NCBI RefSeq assembly: GCF_001424165.1
Contig: NZ_LMOJ01000025.1
Coordinates: forward strand, 640,134-704,133
Length of the DNA stretch: 64,000 bases
DNA from: Massilia sp. Leaf139
Lineage (GTDB): Bacteria; Pseudomonadota; Gammaproteobacteria; Burkholderiales; Burkholderiaceae_D
Direction of reading: 5' to 3'
The stretch's first letter is position 1, and each line of letters begins with the position of its first letter. This document shows positions 6,547 to 64,000 of the stretch, piece after piece. The translations under genes were made by a program, and so were the position numbers. The notes beneath the pieces were generated by a model. That model saw only the letters and a program-made list of their open reading frames with translations, was not told the origin of the DNA and did no database searches.

Positions 6547-6792
6547 CTACTTGAATTTCTCGCGGCTGTCCCGACGTGCCCGGTAGCCGAGCAGAACCAG
6601 GCCGACGAGCATCATGGCGAACACTTCCGGCTCGGGCAATTCGGAAATGCCCGACGGTAGCGCGTATGCCTTCGTCATTGCGCTGTGCGCCGGGCTGACG
6701 GCCGCCGCTTCCGGAATCAAGTCGATGACTTTCGCCTGTGCCACGCTGCTCAGCCCAATGGCGAGCGCTGCTGCGAGTGCGAATCTGTTCAC
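6547..6792 (-). CDS. Minimal PEP-CTERM sorted protein
   Basis: 81 residues with a GTG start preceded by a strong AAGGAAG site. An N-terminal signal peptide (MNRFALAAALAIGLSSVAQA) is followed by about 28 ordinary residues, then LPEPE, a hydrophobic helix (VFAMMLVGLVLLGY) and a basic tail (RARRDSREKFK). This is the tripartite PEP-CTERM signal used by the exosortase/EpsH system of biofilm-forming Gram-negatives. Almost nothing lies between the two sorting signals, so the mature protein would be a short peptide. No exosortase gene is in the window. Confidence 0.85.
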   Translation of the reverse strand: MNRFALAAALAIGLSSVAQAKVIDLIPEAAAVSPAHSAMTKAYALPSGISELPEPEVFAMMLVGLVLLGYRARRDSREKFK

Positions 6793-57805: not shown

Positions 57806-57884
<79 letters not shown>

Positions 57885-58047: not shown

Positions 58048-58737
58048 TCAGCGCGGCTTCGCGCCTTTCATCACGTCAGCAAACGACTGGCTTGGGTCGT
58101 GGCGTGGTGCAGCCTTAGGCGGCCAAGCCTCTCCGCCGAGGACCTCGACAATCGACGGCACTCGTGGCGGAGCATCAGCCGTAGCCCCCAGTGCAGCCGT
58201 TATAACGTCATCGAGCCGGCCAGCGCGGAGGGCGTCAAGCGGCGTTTCGCCAAGGGACGTCCTGACTGTTGTATAAAACAGATATTGCGAACGTGGGTGA
58301 AGGACGGCGAGGGTACGCGTGACTCGCTCGACGTGCTCACGATGGATAGCCGGGTCTGCATAGAACGCGGGATAGTAGGCCCGGCCGCTAGGGCCGGTAA
58401 TTGCGAAGACTCGGTATTCTTCTAGCGCGTCGTCAAGCCAATCGACATCGACTTCGAGCACTTCGCAAAACTCATCAGCAGTTAGCAGCTCTTTGCTCTC
58501 AATTTGTCGCTTCACCATTTCTGCAGCGCGAAGGTGGGCCTCTGCCATAAACGCGTCTCCCGCAGCGATTGACTCAGGTGTGACCGTTGGGTGGCGGCGA
58601 GGCTTCGCCATTTCGGTAAAGGCTTTCTCAGCGATGCGCTCTTCTTCCTGAGCGACGAGCCACTCATCTAGGGTCGGAATCTCGGCATAGTCGGGCCAAT
58701 CTGCTGGCAAATAATCTGGCAGTGCGCGCTTTGTCAT
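58048..58737 (-). CDS. Hypothetical protein with HTH-like and MbcA/ParS-like C-terminal segment
   Basis: 229 residues. After an acidic N-terminal region, LLTADEFCEVLEVDVDWLDDAL (about 84-106) looks like a helix-turn-helix and GRAYYPAFYAD like a DNA-binding wing. The end, RSQYLFYTTVRTSLGETPLDALRAGRLDDVITAA (about 139-172), resembles the toxin-binding domain of MbcA/ParS antitoxins (TPL.AL..GR...V..A). No RES-type toxin gene lies next to it. Possibly an orphan antitoxin-like regulator of the accessory region. Codon use is less GC-biased than in the core. Confidence 0.65.
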   Translation of the reverse strand: MTKRALPDYLPADWPDYAEIPTLDEWLVAQEEERIAEKAFTEMAKPRRHPTVTPESIAAGDAFMAEAHLRAAEMVKRQIESKELLTADEFCEVLEVDVDWLDDALEEYRVFAITGPSGRAYYPAFYADPAIHREHVERVTRTLAVLHPRSQYLFYTTVRTSLGETPLDALRAGRLDDVITAALGATADAPPRVPSIVEVLGGEAWPPKAAPRHDPSQSFADVMKGAKPR

Positions 58738-59091
58738 AGAGCCTCCTTTGTGGCTTCAAGTATAACGCCGGCACGTCGCCGGCGCAGGCTTACGCTACCC
58801 TGTTGGCGGCCAAGTCCAGCCCACGACGGCAAGAAGCTCGGGGGTTTTGTTTAAGATTTTCGCGGGCGCAGGCTCGACCACTGGCGAAAGGTGTCGCATG
58901 CGTTGGCTCTGTCGGCAATTGAGTCGAACGCCCTCCGCGGGTTTGTCCTCACCGAACTACTCCGTGACGGTGCAGCGCTGAAGAAAAATAGTTCAGAGCG
59001 CTTAGCGAGTAAAAGTAGAAGCTAGCGAGTCGGTAGCACGTCCGTATATCGTCAGGCTACAATCCTATATTGTCGAAAAAGGGATGGCGGT
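58738..59091. other. Intergenic region between divergent accessory genes
   Basis: About 354 bases without a supported gene. It holds the promoters of both neighbours. A GCCGGCACGTCGCCGGC palindrome lies near 58770-58786. TACAAT (59058-59063) is a possible -10 for the gene at 59092, without a good -35. Confidence 0.4.
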
Positions 59092-60279
59092 ATGGCAAAG
59101 GTAATCAGTCAGTTCTTCTCAGATTTAGGGTATCCCCTGCGGAACACACGTTGGTCGTGGGGTGCGCGTAACGGAAACTCTCTATTGCTGCGTACCTGGA
59201 ACGACGAATATGCATTCAAAGAGCGGAAGCTGAGAGTCTTAGATATTGAGGACGCCGACCAACGGTTCGATTCGTTTGGCCTGGACGAGCGTATCGTTCA
59301 ACTTAAGGCCCTATGGGATGGAAACGTCGCCGGATACACCGTTATTGCAACGGCAAAGGACAAGAACGCTCGTCCGCGCGAAATAATTGCGTACCGGGAC
59401 GATGGTGTATTCGCACTCTCCCGGCTTGAGCAAAATTCCAACGGGGATATCGTTGCAATCGTCGGTGACATTGTTCCCCTCTCCGGATTAGCACTGCACG
59501 CACAGACGCACCGGACCGCGCGGGCGCAAGGCGACTTCCCCATAGGCGACGAGCAGCGCTCAGGGCTGTCCACTGACTCGTACAAGGAGAAGATTCCCGC
59601 TATCCGCGCCTGGCTCATTGAAATTTGCCACGCTCGAGGGACCGTAACGTATTCGGACGTCATGAACCGCTTTGCGCTGACGTTCTACCCTTTGCGCAAT
59701 GCAATGAGTCGTCTCGGTCACGAATGCAAGGACGCCAAGGAACCTATTATCACGGCGCTCATCGTCGATAAGGATACCCGGCGCTGCTCCCAAGGGCTAT
59801 TCGACGAGTTCCAGATTGATGACGATGTATTGGAGCGGGACCGGTGCTACGCTCACTGGGCGCCCACAGTCGCAGACGCATCGCCCGCTATAGTTGCCCC
59901 ATTACTGAGCAGCCATCTGGGCCGACCCAACGATGAGTTTGAACAGCGCGCGGCACGATTCACAGAGGTGCAAACGCGCCCAGAGCAAAGTGTTTTCCGA
60001 GATGCGGTGTTCCGAGCTTGTGGAGGCCAGTGTGTTGTTAGCGGATGCACCGTCCCGGAGGCTTTGGAAGCTGCTCACAGACTTGGTCGCGATTGGCGTC
60101 AGGGGCACAATCGCGCGGCTGATGGCATCTTGCTTCGTCGGGACCTACACAACTTGTACGACCGTGGGCTGTTACGGATAAGTGGTACAGGCCAGGTCGA
60201 GTTGTCAGATGCGCTGCTTGCTTACTACGGCGAGTTCAACGGAGTGATGGTGACCCTAGACGCCTGGGACAACCTGTGA
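59092..60279 (+). CDS. HNH endonuclease domain protein (HNH_2 type)
   Basis: 395 residues; ATG preceded by AAAGGGATGG. The C-terminal 95 residues (about 300-395) read FRDAVFRACGGQCVVSGCTVPEALEAAHRLG..ADGILLRRDLHNLYDRGLL, the HNH_2 nuclease core with a Cys pair, AAH and the later LHNLYD helix. The first 290 residues are not recognised; they contain a putative winged-helix-like part (KIPAIRAWLIEICHARGTVTYSDVMNRF). It may be a solitary restriction-like enzyme. No methyltransferase is adjacent. Confidence 0.8.
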   Translation: MAKVISQFFSDLGYPLRNTRWSWGARNGNSLLLRTWNDEYAFKERKLRVLDIEDADQRFDSFGLDERIVQLKALWDGNVAGYTVIATAKDKNARPREIIAYRDDGVFALSRLEQNSNGDIVAIVGDIVPLSGLALHAQTHRTARAQGDFPIGDEQRSGLSTDSYKEKIPAIRAWLIEICHARGTVTYSDVMNRFALTFYPLRNAMSRLGHECKDAKEPIITALIVDKDTRRCSQGLFDEFQIDDDVLERDRCYAHWAPTVADASPAIVAPLLSSHLGRPNDEFEQRAARFTEVQTRPEQSVFRDAVFRACGGQCVVSGCTVPEALEAAHRLGRDWRQGHNRAADGILLRRDLHNLYDRGLLRISGTGQVELSDALLAYYGEFNGVMVTLDAWDNL

Positions 60280-60722
60280 CCAGGGAACGCGTCGAAACGT
60301 AGAAGTTGGTGCGTGAGGCATCACATTATTCCAGAGCTAAGTTTAACTTTCCGCCTCCGCGATACTCCAAGAGGGCTAAATAGGCAGACGGAGCAGGCGC
60401 TGCAGCCTACTACTCATACCTTCCGGTTTCTGCCCAAGCGCAGGCACGTTAGAGCCTGCGGCCAAAGTTGTAGGCTACAGAACTTGCTCGTAGCTGAGTA
60501 CGTCGTAATAGGAATCGCATCGGTAGCCGTTCAGGTTTCCCTTCAGCGCCCCGGTCGAGAGACCTCTGTGGTTGCGGCACCGGCCGTCATCACAGGGTCC
60601 CAGTAGGCGTTGCCCTCTCGGTTCTTAGCACAGTCGCGGGGGCTAAAGATTTTGGTGTTTCGTCTGCCATCACCCCCTCATTGGCGGCTTGCAGGGAATT
60701 TGGAATCTGCGTCTAGCACCCT

Positions 60723-60771
60723 GCACTCAGCACTCAGCACTCAGCACTCAGCACTCAGCACTCAGCACGCA
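60723..60771. repeat. Heptanucleotide tandem repeat (GCACTCA)n
   Basis: Six perfect GCACTCA units (60723-60764) followed by one variant GCACGCA (60765-60771). The variant is also the first bases of the neighbouring array unit, so the heptamer block probably grew from the array edge. Confidence 0.95.
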
Positions 60772-61693
60772 GCTCTAGGGTGAAGAACGCAGATTCGGGG
60801 TGAAACCGCAGGGGCGAGTAGTAGAGGGAGGCCAAGCGTTACGAGGGCCTCCCGGTACGAATAAAGGCACGCAGATTTCGGCAGAAGTTGCGCCGATTTA
60901 GGTTGAAGTACAGATGGGCATGGCGAAAGGCAACCGAGGAGTAAAGGAGCGCCATACGTTGCGGGGCCGCCAGCGATGAATATTGCCACGCAGATTTAGG
61001 GTGAAGTTGCGCAGATTAAGGGTGAAGTACAGGTTGGCCATGGCGAAAGGCTACCGAGGAGTAGAGGGGCGCCATACTTATGAGGCTACCGGTCACGAAT
61101 ACAGGCACGCAGATTCAGCTGCAGTACATGTTAGCCAAAGCGAAGGGCAATCCAGAAGCAGAGGGGCGTCAAACGTAGGAGGGTTGCTGGCCGCGAATCG
61201 GACACGCAGATTTAGGGTGAAGTTGCGCAGATTTAGGGTGGAGTACAGGTTAGCCATGGCGAAAGGCTACCGGAGAGTAGAGGGCCCCATACTTATGAGG
61301 CCCACCGGGCAGGAATTGGGCACGCAGATTTAGGGTGTGTAGTACAGGGTGGTCAAGGTGAAGGGCAATCCAGACGTAGAGGGGCGTCAAACGTAGGAGG
61401 GTTGCTTGCCAAGAATCGGACACACAGATTTAGGGTGAAGTTGTGCAGATTTAGGGTGGAGTACAGGTTAGCCATGGCGAAAGGCTACCGGGGAGTAGAG
61501 GGGCGCCATACTTATGAGGCCCACCGGGCAGGAATTGAGCACGCAGATTTAGGGCGATGTACAGGTTGGCTAAGGTGAAGGGCAATCCAGACGTAGAGGG
61601 GCGTCAAACATTATGAGGGTTGCCGGCCACGAATCGGCCGCGCAGATTTAGGGTGAAGTTGCGCAGATTCAGGGTGACGTACAGGTTGGCAAC
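60766..61693. repeat. Degenerate tandem array with alternating about 119-bp and 99-bp units
   Basis: Units begin with CACGCAG at 60766, 60868, 60987, 61106, 61203, 61321, 61421 (CACACAG), 61540 and 61639 (CGCGCAG), with lengths 102, 119, 119, 97, 118, 100, 119, 99 and a truncated last unit. Long units carry two copies of a GCAGATTTAGGGTGAAGT sequence about 20 bp apart, then GCCATGGCGAAAGGCTACC. Short units carry one copy, then AAGGGCAATCCAGA and GGGCGTCAAAC. Long-short pairs of about 217 bp repeat three times from 60987, a higher-order repeat. Confidence 0.9.
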
Positions 61694-61905
61694 TTAACGT
61701 AGCGTCGGGCCCCCATCGAGCGACATCTTGTAACGGGTGTATTTACGTCGGACAGGGGCTGGGCGCTGTATCTCCTCGAAATTGGACTCTGCACGAATAA
61801 GCGCCAATTTATACGTTTTGAGGATTTGATAAAAAGTTCGCCGGATGGGTGCCGGCTTTGCCCATGCCATGAGTGACCGGCCGGTATGCTGCGTGGCCTG
61901 GACTC

Positions 61906-61919
61906 TTGCGCCGGCGCAA
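61906..61919. repeat. 14-bp palindrome TTGCGCCGGCGCAA (first of five)
   Basis: Perfect copies at 61906-61919, 62816-62829, 62964-62977 and 63096-63109; an imperfect one (TTACGCCGACGCAA) at 62029-62042. All lie in non-coding accessory DNA. Confidence 0.9.
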
Positions 61920-62452
61920 AACTCTTAGCAGCGCCAACCCTGCCTTTCACTCAATACCGCACCGTAGCGCCCGCGTCCGGGCGAGACGTCTTTAGGCTGT
62001 TGAGCTATTGAGCTTAGCCTACATACCCTTACGCCGACGCAAGGGGCCTCCAGCGCCACCAAAACCCCTTTTGATTACAAAGCCCCTCTGCCGCTCTGCG
62101 GCAGTTCCATCCGACCAAGCTGCGCCCCGGAGGGCGCGACGTTGAGCGCGCAGCGTGGGACGGGTACGACAGGCCAAAATCCCGCAGCATAAATGGGGAA
62201 ACTCCCCGGCGATGGTTTGTAGTGTCTTCGGTATTCATGCGGGCGGAGCACGCACGAAAACAAGGAGGCGATGCGAAGCAGCGCCACCGACGTGCTGCAC
62301 CCTCTCGGGAACCTGAATGCGCGTTCTTCGGTAAGACGATTTCGCGCAATGGCCGTACACGCCCTTTGCCAACAACGGCTTTCGAGCGGGCGTAGCGATG
62401 CGGGTAGTACAGCACCCCGGCCTTCGGCCGGGCGCAGAACTCCCTTTTGTTG

Positions 62453-62677
62453 TCAACGCTCTATCGCTGTCGCTTCGGGAAGTGCTCGGGCGACATCGGC
62501 TCTAGCACTCTCGATTGCAGCTGCCTCGGACTCTGCCGCTCGCGTGAAATCGAGGCACAACTGCCCGGGACGGCCGAGGCCTACGAGTGCATCTGTGCAC
62601 CCCGCCGCGGCCAAGCGCTCTAGCGCGTCATCGACATTGCTCTCAACGCTGTATCTCAGTGTGAACTCGTACTCCAT
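62453..62677 (-). CDS. Small hypothetical accessory protein
   Basis: 74 residues. MEYEFTLRYSVESNVDDALERLAAAGCTDALVGLGRPGQLCLDFTRAAES has the pattern of a small ferredoxin-like family found in accessory regions (a beta strand, a helix, AGC-D-AL-G-G..G...LDF.R, then a helix with A.ADV..A.P). In some relatives, as I recall them, an HTH follows; here the protein stops after that point. A very good GGAGGATG ribosome site at 62681-62690 decides the start; the frame open to 63109 runs through the repeat array and is not thought to be translated. Confidence 0.65.
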   Translation of the reverse strand: MEYEFTLRYSVESNVDDALERLAAAGCTDALVGLGRPGQLCLDFTRAAESEAAAIESARADVARALPEATAIER

Positions 62678-62788
62678 CACATCCTCCAGTAGTCCTGCCC
62701 CCTCAAAGCGTACCTCGCCTTGTAGCCCCGCGAACCATAAGCCATAAAAATCCGCTGCCCAAGACTCTCGCCGATGTGCAGCGCTAGC

Positions 62789-63157
62789 ATTGAAGCAAGA
62801 GGGAGTCCCGTCACCTTGCGCCGGCGCAAGAACGCACGCACTCCACTTTGAAAGCAAAGGAGTGTCAACCCGACATGCAACACCAGGAGTTCTGCCGGAG
62901 AGGCAGCACCAGACATTGAAAACAAAGAGCGCTTCCGCCGATACGTAGCACCAGACCGCGGCCTTGCGCCGGCGCAAGGGTCTAGGAACCACCGCATTGA
63001 AAACAATAGGAAGCTCGGCCAAGGGGCAGCAGTCCGGGCCCGCGGCTCTAGTGAGGGAAGGCCATAGCATTGCAAACAAGGCGTTGTCGCGAGGCTTGCG
63101 CCGGCGCAAGGTGATGCTCGAGTTACGAGAGAGTCGGAGTTTAAATTGAAAACAAAG
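62789..63157. repeat. Spaced array of the motif ATTGAAAACAAAG with interleaved palindromes
   Basis: Motif copies at 62789 (degenerate), 62846 (CTTTGAAAGCAAAGG), 62915, 62996, 63069 (one change) and 63145, spaced about 57, 69, 81, 73 and 76 bp. The palindrome TTGCGCCGGCGCAA lies in alternate intervals (62816, 62964, 63096). The sequences between are otherwise different from one another. Confidence 0.75.
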
Positions 63158-63414
63158 GGGGTAGTGCGGCTCGGGAGGGCTTGTAGGTAGGTATTGCAGG
63201 TCTGAGAGGCATACCGAGCGTAGCGAGGGGTCTTATTCGCCGCCAGCAGTCCTGACTGCCGTTCACGTTAGCCGTCCTGTTGTGGGCTGCATTGGTTTTC
63301 AAGCACCGACACTCGGGACCGGTGCTAGCCTGAAAGCCGCACCAGTGCTGGCTTTTGCTCCCTTTCAGGGGTTGGAACTTTAAGGGAAAACGCGTTGTAG
63401 CTATACACGAAGAA

Positions 63415-63436
63415 CCCTGTTGCAGATTCAACAGGG
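63415..63436. promoter_or_regulatory. Perfect inverted repeat upstream of the last gene
   Basis: CCCTGTTG and CAACAGGG, 6 nt apart, 28 nt before the start codon. No T-run follows. It could be an operator or a leader hairpin close to the ribosome site. Confidence 0.6.
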
Positions 63437-63464
63437 GTATCAACCCACCTACACGGAAACTACA

Positions 63465-64000
63465 ATGAAAAGCCTCACCCCTCAGCAACTCCACATTCTG
63501 ACGCTGCTCGGAACGTTCGGCTACCTCTCGACTCGTGACGTGTCCAAGCTCGCCTGGCCGAACAGCGAATCGCACAGTGCACATGTAATGGCCCAGGCCT
63601 CCCTCTCCCGGCTCGCTGACCTCGGGCTTGTCCTGGCCCGCGATTTGCGCGAACGGCCGGCGGCAAAGCGTGAGGCGCCCCCACCGAAAACTGGCATCGC
63701 CAAAGGCTATGTACTAACCAAGCGGGGTGCCGAAGAACTGAACAATCACTGGATGCCGGAGTACTCGGTGTACGACTTGCCCGAGGACGGGAATGCCTCC
63801 CTCTGGTTTGCCGACGGCTATAACTTGAGCTTGAAGGACCACGTCGTACGCGCGCCGGTCATCGAGCTTTGCCACCAGATGACGCGGCAATGGAGCCCGC
63901 TCGATGACACTGACCCTACCGAGCAGACTTTCTTGAGTATCCTGCCGGTGGGGCCGAGGGGCGCTAGCCGAAACTTTTTAGGTCTGAAGGCTTACTCGCA
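63465..64000 (+). CDS. Winged-helix protein, replication-relaxation-like (3' truncated by window)
   Basis: The frame is open from the ATG at 63465 (GGAAA upstream) to the window end, at least 178 residues. MKSLTPQQLHILTLLGTFGYLSTRDVSKLAW, then SLSRLADLGLVLAR and GYVLTKRGAEELNNHW, has the winged-helix layout of the replication-relaxation family found on plasmids and integrative elements: a helix, an HTH and a hydrophobic wing. The remaining part is not recognised. It supports the view that the right end of the window is a mobile element. Confidence 0.65.
   Translation, partial: MKSLTPQQLHILTLLGTFGYLSTRDVSKLAWPNSESHSAHVMAQASLSRLADLGLVLARDLRERPAAKREAPPPKTGIAKGYVLTKRGAEELNNHWMPEYSVYDLPEDGNASLWFADGYNLSLKDHVVRAPVIELCHQMTRQWSPLDDTDPTEQTFLSILPVGPRGASRNFLGLKAYS

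Follow-up and report, generated by a model that had tools for sequence, protein, structure and literature searches.

Tandem repeats of non-coding DNA are found in bacteria as minisatellites (VNTR loci), whose units, from some tens of bases to roughly 100 bases long, diverge by slippage or unequal recombination, and in eukaryotic satellites such repeats can have a higher-order structure, in which copies of a compound unit resemble each other more closely than do the monomers inside it. Other repeats are directly repeated protein sites. A spacing of 21 bp is typical of iterons, and the origin of phage P4 has type I iterons. Several direct sites of ~20 bp, ~21–23 bp apart, are also present at the ends of IS21, Tn7 and Mu, and each end of IS21 is reported to have at least two direct repeats with 23 bp between them (PMC10122671). 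We have compared these systems with a tandem array of Massilia sp. Leaf139, located in a stretch of 64,000 nucleotides that we refer to as the window, and whose coordinates are used throughout unless another contig or locus is named.

Structure of the array

The array occupies positions 60766–61690 and contains eight full units and one partial unit, in agreement with the nine units with a CACGCAG-like start reported in a preliminary description of this DNA. The units, as defined by alignment to each other (and for U4 also by a profile scan), are as follows.

60766–60867, + strand: U1, 102 bp, two cores, the first being the CTC variant common to the phage described below; deletion in the body
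60868–60986, + strand: U2, 119 bp, long unit with two cores
60987–61105, + strand: U3, 119 bp, long unit with two cores; first half of dimer 1
61106–61202, + strand: U4, 97 bp, short unit with one degenerate core; second half of dimer 1
61203–61320, + strand: U5, 118 bp, long unit with two cores; first half of dimer 2
61321–61420, + strand: U6, 100 bp, short unit with one core; second half of dimer 2
61421–61539, + strand: U7, 119 bp, long unit with two cores; first half of dimer 3
61540–61638, + strand: U8, 99 bp, short unit with one core; second half of dimer 3
61639–61690, + strand: U9, 52 bp, truncated long unit with two cores, ending near 61690

TRF calls the array as 3.2 copies of a 218 bp repeat (score 1060) and, in a second call, as 2.5 copies of a 119 bp repeat (score 338); among 100 dinucleotide-shuffled versions of the 64-kb window the highest score is 76, and the array is a minisatellite of head-to-tail, non-coding units far above chance. 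There are fifteen cores, all on the + strand (2, 2, 2, 1, 2, 1, 2, 1 and 2 in U1–U9), with successive spacings, calculated from core positions entered by hand, of 20, 82, 21, 98, 21, 98, 97, 21, 97, 100, 21, 98, 99 and 21 bp. Fourteen of them pass a profile scan, the exception being the single core of U4 (at 61107), which is intact over its first 12 bases only. The long and short units differ by the presence or absence of one 21-bp core. Three long-short pairs of 216, 218 and 218 bp (119+97, 118+100 and 119+99) follow one another from 60987, as described earlier, and the cores of the two-core units are indeed about 20 bp apart (21 bp, and 20 bp in U1). An alternation of ~119 and ~99 bp units had been proposed for the whole array; it holds from U3 (60987) onwards but not array-wide, as U1 (102 bp), U2 (119 bp) and U3 (119 bp) all have two cores.

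The array is a true higher-order repeat, with dimer copies that are closer to each other than are the monomers within a dimer. The pairwise identities of dimers U3U4, U5U6 and U7U8 are 88.3, 88.3 and 92.6%. The long units U3, U5 and U7 are mutually 83–95% identical and the short units U4, U6 and U8 82–87%, whereas long and short units are only 69–73% identical. With dimers 88–93% alike and long and short units ~70% alike, the youngest event is a duplication of the dimer.

The preliminary description also held that the core is kept better than the rest of the unit. Fitch steps per opportunity, counted on a tree fixed by hand, with U9 left out, with column borders of our own choosing and with U1 and the short units gapped in the core region, are 0.057 for core copy 1 and 0.153 for core copy 2, compared with 0.114, 0.128 and 0.233 for the left, middle and right parts of the body. 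Both cores together give 0.100 versus 0.162 for the body. Permutation of the columns reaches this difference in 97 of 10000 trials, and when the columns are shifted circularly (118 shifts) it is reached only at zero shift. Between the recent duplicates U5 and U7 the core has no advantage (2/41 differences in the core versus 3/77 in the body). The better conservation thus applies to the first core copy, but it is weak for the second, which changes at about the same rate as the body.

Two other types of repeat were considered and rejected. A protein-coding repeat conflicts with the 8–20 stops in each of the six frames, the longest open stretch of 117 codons and periods that are not multiples of three, and a CRISPR array with units that differ by up to 44% and spacers that are themselves repeated. 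An RNA function of the array is unsupported but conceivable: there is no Rfam match at E ≤ 1, and single-unit folds are near those of shuffles (z −2.75 to 1.42 in 16 folds). The RNAalifold consensus is weak (−4.94, with a covariation term of +0.37), and its pair statistics are mixed. It has three pairs changed on both sides, a number reached by 280 of 500 shuffles; its covariation score is reached by 2/500 shuffles and its percent paired by 1/500, and slid versions score lower, as they should when a structure is evaluated on the sequences from which it was predicted.

Two further features of the sequence were seen. The + strand of the array is 63% purine, compared with a mean of 50.6% in 925-bp tiles of the window (sd 2.3, maximum 57.9%), and the explanation favored below leaves this excess unexplained. 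A second, shorter array adjoins the first:

60715–60773, + strand: 7-bp tandem array, AGCACTC, 8.4 copies (TRF), running straight into U1

Three successive units of this heptamer (≤1 mismatch) are found nowhere else in the same genome. Beyond it, 60703–60722 is an inverted 20-bp match (80%) to the core junction at 60777–60796, which may be due to chance.

Searches for related arrays

The preliminary description had recommended that the unit be sought in related genomes and plasmids, and these searches found no second array. Within the same genome the best other match is 25 bp (E 0.025). The array is in none of the 61 other same-genus genomes (present in 1 of 62, with one genome per species in the sample), and has no blastn match in 72,556 plasmid and 50,697 phage records. 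Among 392 genomes of the family (own included), the sole other match is 30 bp in G323 (E 6.8e-4); this falls in the body of U2 and not in a core, and is taken as chance. No described satellite was matched in these collections, which are of sequences and do not constitute a satellite catalogue, and among the titles listed in a literature search none concerns this repeat, its sequence strings matching no paper. The exact 19-mer core is absent from genome_contigs and viral_contigs, both of which may omit the window's own record. A gapped pattern for the core doublet has no match in genome_contigs and a single match in viral_contigs, to IMG/VR contig G517, which is also retrieved by a looser doublet pattern and by the CTC-type core. 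A gapped pattern with cores 84–114 bp apart retrieved nothing in the viral contigs.

A related site in a phage contig

Contig G517 (IMGVR_UViG_3300028585_000035) is 44,570 bp long and carries the core doublet CACGCAGATTCAGGGTGAAGTAGCGCAGATTTAGGGTGAA and, 57 bp on, a third core, ACGCAGCTCTAGGGTGAA. Over 18 bases, CTC variant included, this third core has the same sequence as the first core of U1. The doublet shares 23, 33, 37, 37, 35 and 35 of 40 bases with the six doublets of the window; the best matches are to U3 and U5 (37/40), and the U1 doublet is shifted by one base in this comparison. In G517 the cores are situated between a P4-family primase gene (TIGR01613, 8.4e-40; D5_N, 1.8e-17) and a 98-aa ORF, which starts ~47 bp from the doublet and is followed by a phage lysozyme gene. 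There are also a ParA-like gene, an integrase (PHROG 1, 1.7e-39) and, by our reading of the ORFs, structural genes. In scans of viral contigs the lysozyme is found at 58 loci and a 243-aa protein of G517 at one.

When the 10 kb that surround the array are compared with G517, seven matches appear, all in one order and orientation. One is to the gene for a 229-aa protein, p229 (58048–58750, 77%), one is to the core doublet (60985–61026, 93%), and five further stretches of 70–82% identity are at 62025–62857, 62962–63260, 63395–63559, 63803–63875 and 64230–64574, the last being past the end of the window. The features concerned are:

58048–58737, − strand: p229, 229-aa protein with no family match; also in G517 (80%) and in G011 and G037 (60%)
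62025–63260, no strand assigned: G517-like block in the same order and orientation, with stretches 78–81% identical in DNA
62453–62680, − strand: small gene (~74 aa), excisionase and transcriptional regulator by a weak PHROG match (2.3e-4); 86% identical over 72 aa in G517
63465–64000, + strand: 257-aa gene running past the window end; 48% identical to the 243-aa gene of G517

As judged from these alignments, the left end of the island in which the array lies (see below) shares collinear genes and non-coding DNA with G517, and the array stands at the place of the G517 doublet and third core. Both flanks of a G517-like element persist in the window together with its cores, and most of the middle is absent. 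In G517 the distance from the cores to the shared block is 5.2 kb, with the ParA-like and primase genes in between, and the distance to p229 is 28.6 kb, so that several deletions are needed; a possible alternative is a shared mosaic of islands. A search by tblastn found no remnant of the G517 integrase in the window or in loci L009, L010, L044 and L045. Palindrome-type repeats account for thirteen more short matches to G517 (19–32 bp), which face either way and add no collinearity. Palindromic GCGCCGGCGCAAGG-like repeats, which are in many places of G517, are present in the window at 61901–61924, 62025–62047, 62960–62981 and 63091–63112.

Comparison of the phage spacer with the eight unit bodies gives, at best, a score reached by 11 of 500 shuffles (U3). 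For the stretch after the third phage core the score is reached by 0/500 shuffles with U8 and 3/500 with U6, there being 16 spacer comparisons in all. The spacers thus do not clearly appear to be common to phage and array, and descent from the phage rests on ~40 plus 18 bases and on position.

An island at tRNA-Met

The array is near one end of an island that occupies the tRNA-Met beside rpoD, and is within ~2.2 kb that have no convincing gene, between an HNH_2 gene and the small excisionase-like gene. The features on its left are:

57806–57884, + strand: tRNA-Met (ARAGORN), attachment site and left border of the island (attL), with a copy of its 3′ end elsewhere
59092–60279, + strand: HNH_2 endonuclease-like gene (Pfam PF13391, 3.9e-08), the upstream neighbor of the array

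In 61 of the 62 genomes of the genus (own included) there is a match to the end of rpoD and tRNA-Met, either unbroken or in two pieces; G048, the remaining genome (84% complete), has only a 60-bp match to this region. A second copy of the tRNA 3′ end (48 bp) is at 6744–6791 of contig C24 of the same genome (G000), and past it is a match (77.5% over 1429 bp) to the gene that directly follows tRNA-Met in G016 (L026). One relative, G016, displays the empty site, and the gene was not matched in the other 27 of 28 relative loci within the stretches compared. Among the matches listed, the DNA behind the tRNA has counterparts only in G022 (its HNH gene) and in G011 and G037 (relatives of p229). If the two contigs represent one island, it is at least 53,951 bp long (47,208 bp from 57885 to the end of C25, and 6,743 bp of C24). 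The preliminary description's placement of a higher-order tandem array in accessory DNA is borne out by the dimer identities, the tRNA-Met border of the island and the empty site in one relative.

Further along the island there are metal-transport and copper-type genes, named by eye from their translations, and a 360-aa protein with repeated NFRNCDSGYSSCD-type motifs (L009 12647–13729). The HNH gene was considered as a partner of the array and rejected, since no array of this kind is present around the related genes in G072 and G022. Assignment of p229 to a known DNA-binding family was likewise rejected, as it has no match in Pfam, PHROGs, NCBIfam or PDB; its AlphaFold model is poor (mean pLDDT 55.6).

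Core-like sites elsewhere in the genus

In a search of 248 relatives with two or fewer mismatches allowed, the core has 19 matches in 14 genomes outside its own, versus 8 for a reversed control, and these are mostly singletons. One of the matches led to a cluster in G003 and G061. The singletons in G004 and G105 have a common flank and are taken to be a putative coding site, and further singletons are in G032, G060 and G059. Exact matches to a shortened, 14-bp form of the core, ACGCAGATTHAGGG, number 19 across 14 of 247 relatives (own genome not counted), against 3 for the reversed control; within the 61 other same-genus genomes there are 13, spread over 8 genomes, against 0 for that control. 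The H in this pattern was chosen after G061 and G003 had been seen, which inflates the excess but not the clustering. G061 has three copies within ~340 bp, and so does G003 at the orthologous position (the two being 94.7% identical over 1.9 kb). G037 has two copies 121 bp apart, and G011 has one, in a region 96.4% identical to the G037 region. Because the first pair is orthologous and the second near-identical, there are two sites here rather than four independent ones, and each is present in 2 of the 61 genomes. In a profile scan of 135 loci, with the window and nine loci that contain or border the array excluded, groups of at least two core-like matches are confined to pieces of G517 (L052, L056, L065, L082 and L140) and to L072 (G003).

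In G011 and G037 a p229 relative is 1.2–1.3 kb from the core-like sites. However, p229 also occurs without cores (G072), and its link to the core is thus only a lead. Both genomes have a run of three recombinase-size ORFs, one of which matched NF041502 (site-specific integrase). In L145 (1–4862) and L147 this trio and a 163-aa ORF are beside the p229 relative and the core-like sites, an arrangement that resembles integrase-trio islands.

Origin and possible roles of the array

The collinearity of G517 with this end of the island makes it probable that the array arose by expansion of an intergenic site in a prophage that has since decayed. The explanation that we favor, and that we think somewhat more likely than not to be correct, is that the array is a diverged minisatellite grown from a core-bearing intergenic site of a mostly lost prophage, with cores that were ancestrally putative protein sites and are now most likely vestigial. 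A doublet of cores 21 bp apart, together with its spacer, would have been duplicated in tandem; one copy would then have lost one core and diverged to give the short form, and the resulting long-short dimer (~217 bp) would have been duplicated twice more. Replication slippage or unequal recombination may have provided the route, with the cores as repeated homology and amplification taking place during prophage decay. In the ancestral phage, a DNA-binding protein belonging to the mobile element may have recognized the cores as direct repeats, as suggested by the retention of two sites two helical turns apart while the adjoining spacer is not clearly alignable. Neither primase nor integrase of a G517-like phage was found in the island, so the array is most likely vestigial and a present function is doubtful.

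Readings that assign the cores to a specific protein fare less well. The G517 cores are in the intergenic region just after the D5_N/P4-family primase gene, and their motif shares GGTGAA with the P4 iteron; they could in principle be origin repeats to which the parent phage's primase-helicase, or some other initiator, binds, a reading that we find highly improbable. Relatives of this primase are encoded by G518 (60%) and, in 295 genomes searched, by G003 (70%) and G072 (58%), and none of the three has a comparable core nearby (18, 9.8 and 16 kb around G003, G518 and G072, respectively). The best match beside them scores 13.5 (G003), compared with 22.8–30.6 for the phage cores, and ~2 matches of ≥11 are expected per 64 kb by chance. 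All four primase intergenic regions have TTACAGA/TCTGTAA repeats, eight in G517 and ten in G518 (shuffle mean 0.1), and eight in G003 and five in G072 in clusters that lack a shuffle control. The clusters in these four elements are downstream of the P4-family primases, at L052 5853–6473, L057 5897–6477, near L143 9025–9305 (G003) and near L144 9054–9262 (G072), and TTACAGA/TCTGTAA is likely to be an origin repeat. As the primase relatives share this repeat and have no comparable core, the core is unlikely to be the site of the G517 primase. Moreover, the Leaf139 genome has no match to this primase at E ≤ 0.001, and 60280–62025 of the window is without TTACAGA. The preliminary suggestion of an iteron-like site for a replication initiator is thus not upheld. 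It is also quite improbable that the cores serve the transposase of an element like IS21, Tn7 or Mu, with several direct copies of a ~20-bp site in each end. The doublet and third copy in G517 and the clusters in G061/G003 and G037 would fit such an arrangement, but each set of cores is one-directional (14 in the array, three each in G517, G061 and G003, and two in G037), with no opposite-orientation copy closing an element. No transposase gene is beside the cores among the ORFs examined in L052, L145 and L146, and the outer boundary of the G517 cores, as we read it, is without the TG/CA end of IS21.

Two more general alternatives concern whether the core is a protein site at all. The array could be neutral only, with a core that no protein ever bound and that owes its better conservation to mutual correction of neighbors at 21 bp by slippage or conversion, and with a phage match that reflects shared descent alone. 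This would account for a second core copy that changes about as fast as the body, for the equal change of core and body between U5 and U7 (2/41 and 3/77), and for an array that is in a single genome and has no coding signal and no clear RNA signal. It is nonetheless unlikely, given that G517 keeps the doublet and the CTC core and not the spacer, and that the 14-bp form recurs in clusters (with the 13 matches in 8 of 61 genomes set against 0 for the reversed control, subject to the post hoc choice of H). At the other extreme, ACGCAGATTTAGGG, followed by TGAAG in G517 and the island and by AGCTT-like sequences elsewhere, could be the putative site of an undescribed DNA-binding protein of several unrelated mobile elements in the genus, arranged in in-phase doublets (21 bp) or ~98–121 bp apart, with the array as a titration or decoy cluster. 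We regard this as a tentative proposal with a low probability. One candidate for the partner of the core is p229, which is 1.2–2 kb from the sites in the window, G011 and G037 and 28.6 kb from them in G517. The binding site proposed in the preliminary description has support that is indirect, in that the doublet and third core recur in a phage contig and that the genus has two further sites with clusters of the 14-bp form.

If the array did grow from a prophage site, as we favor, it provides a small and readable case of a phage repeat becoming a higher-order tandem array during prophage decay in a bacterial island, with G517 apparently preserving the locus as it was before the expansion. Should the 14-bp core prove to be bound by a protein, it would mark a binding protein common to mobile elements of one genus and provide a probe for finding it.

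Comparison with known systems

Like bacterial minisatellites and VNTR loci, the array has tandem non-coding units in the size range given above, diverging in the manner of slippage or unequal recombination; it departs from them in its dimeric higher-order structure, in having units that differ by one internal 21-bp core, and in its presence in one genome. Its dimer copies (88–93%) are closer than the two monomers (~70%), as in the higher-order repeats of eukaryotic satellites, but there are only three dimers, at a single locus, in bacterial mobile DNA. The G517 cores resemble the ori and crr iterons of phage P4 in lying next to a gene for a P4-family primase and in being directly repeated at about two helical turns; they differ from phage and plasmid iterons in that the core is not retained with the primase in three relatives, where another repeat is common. 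They also resemble the ends of IS21, Tn7 and Mu in the spacing of several direct sites, but are present in G517 as a single cluster with no inverted partner end found and no transposase seen among the ORFs examined. Minisatellites, higher-order repeats and direct-repeat sites are thus all known kinds, and it is their combination in a bacterial island, with a related phage locus, that sets this array apart.
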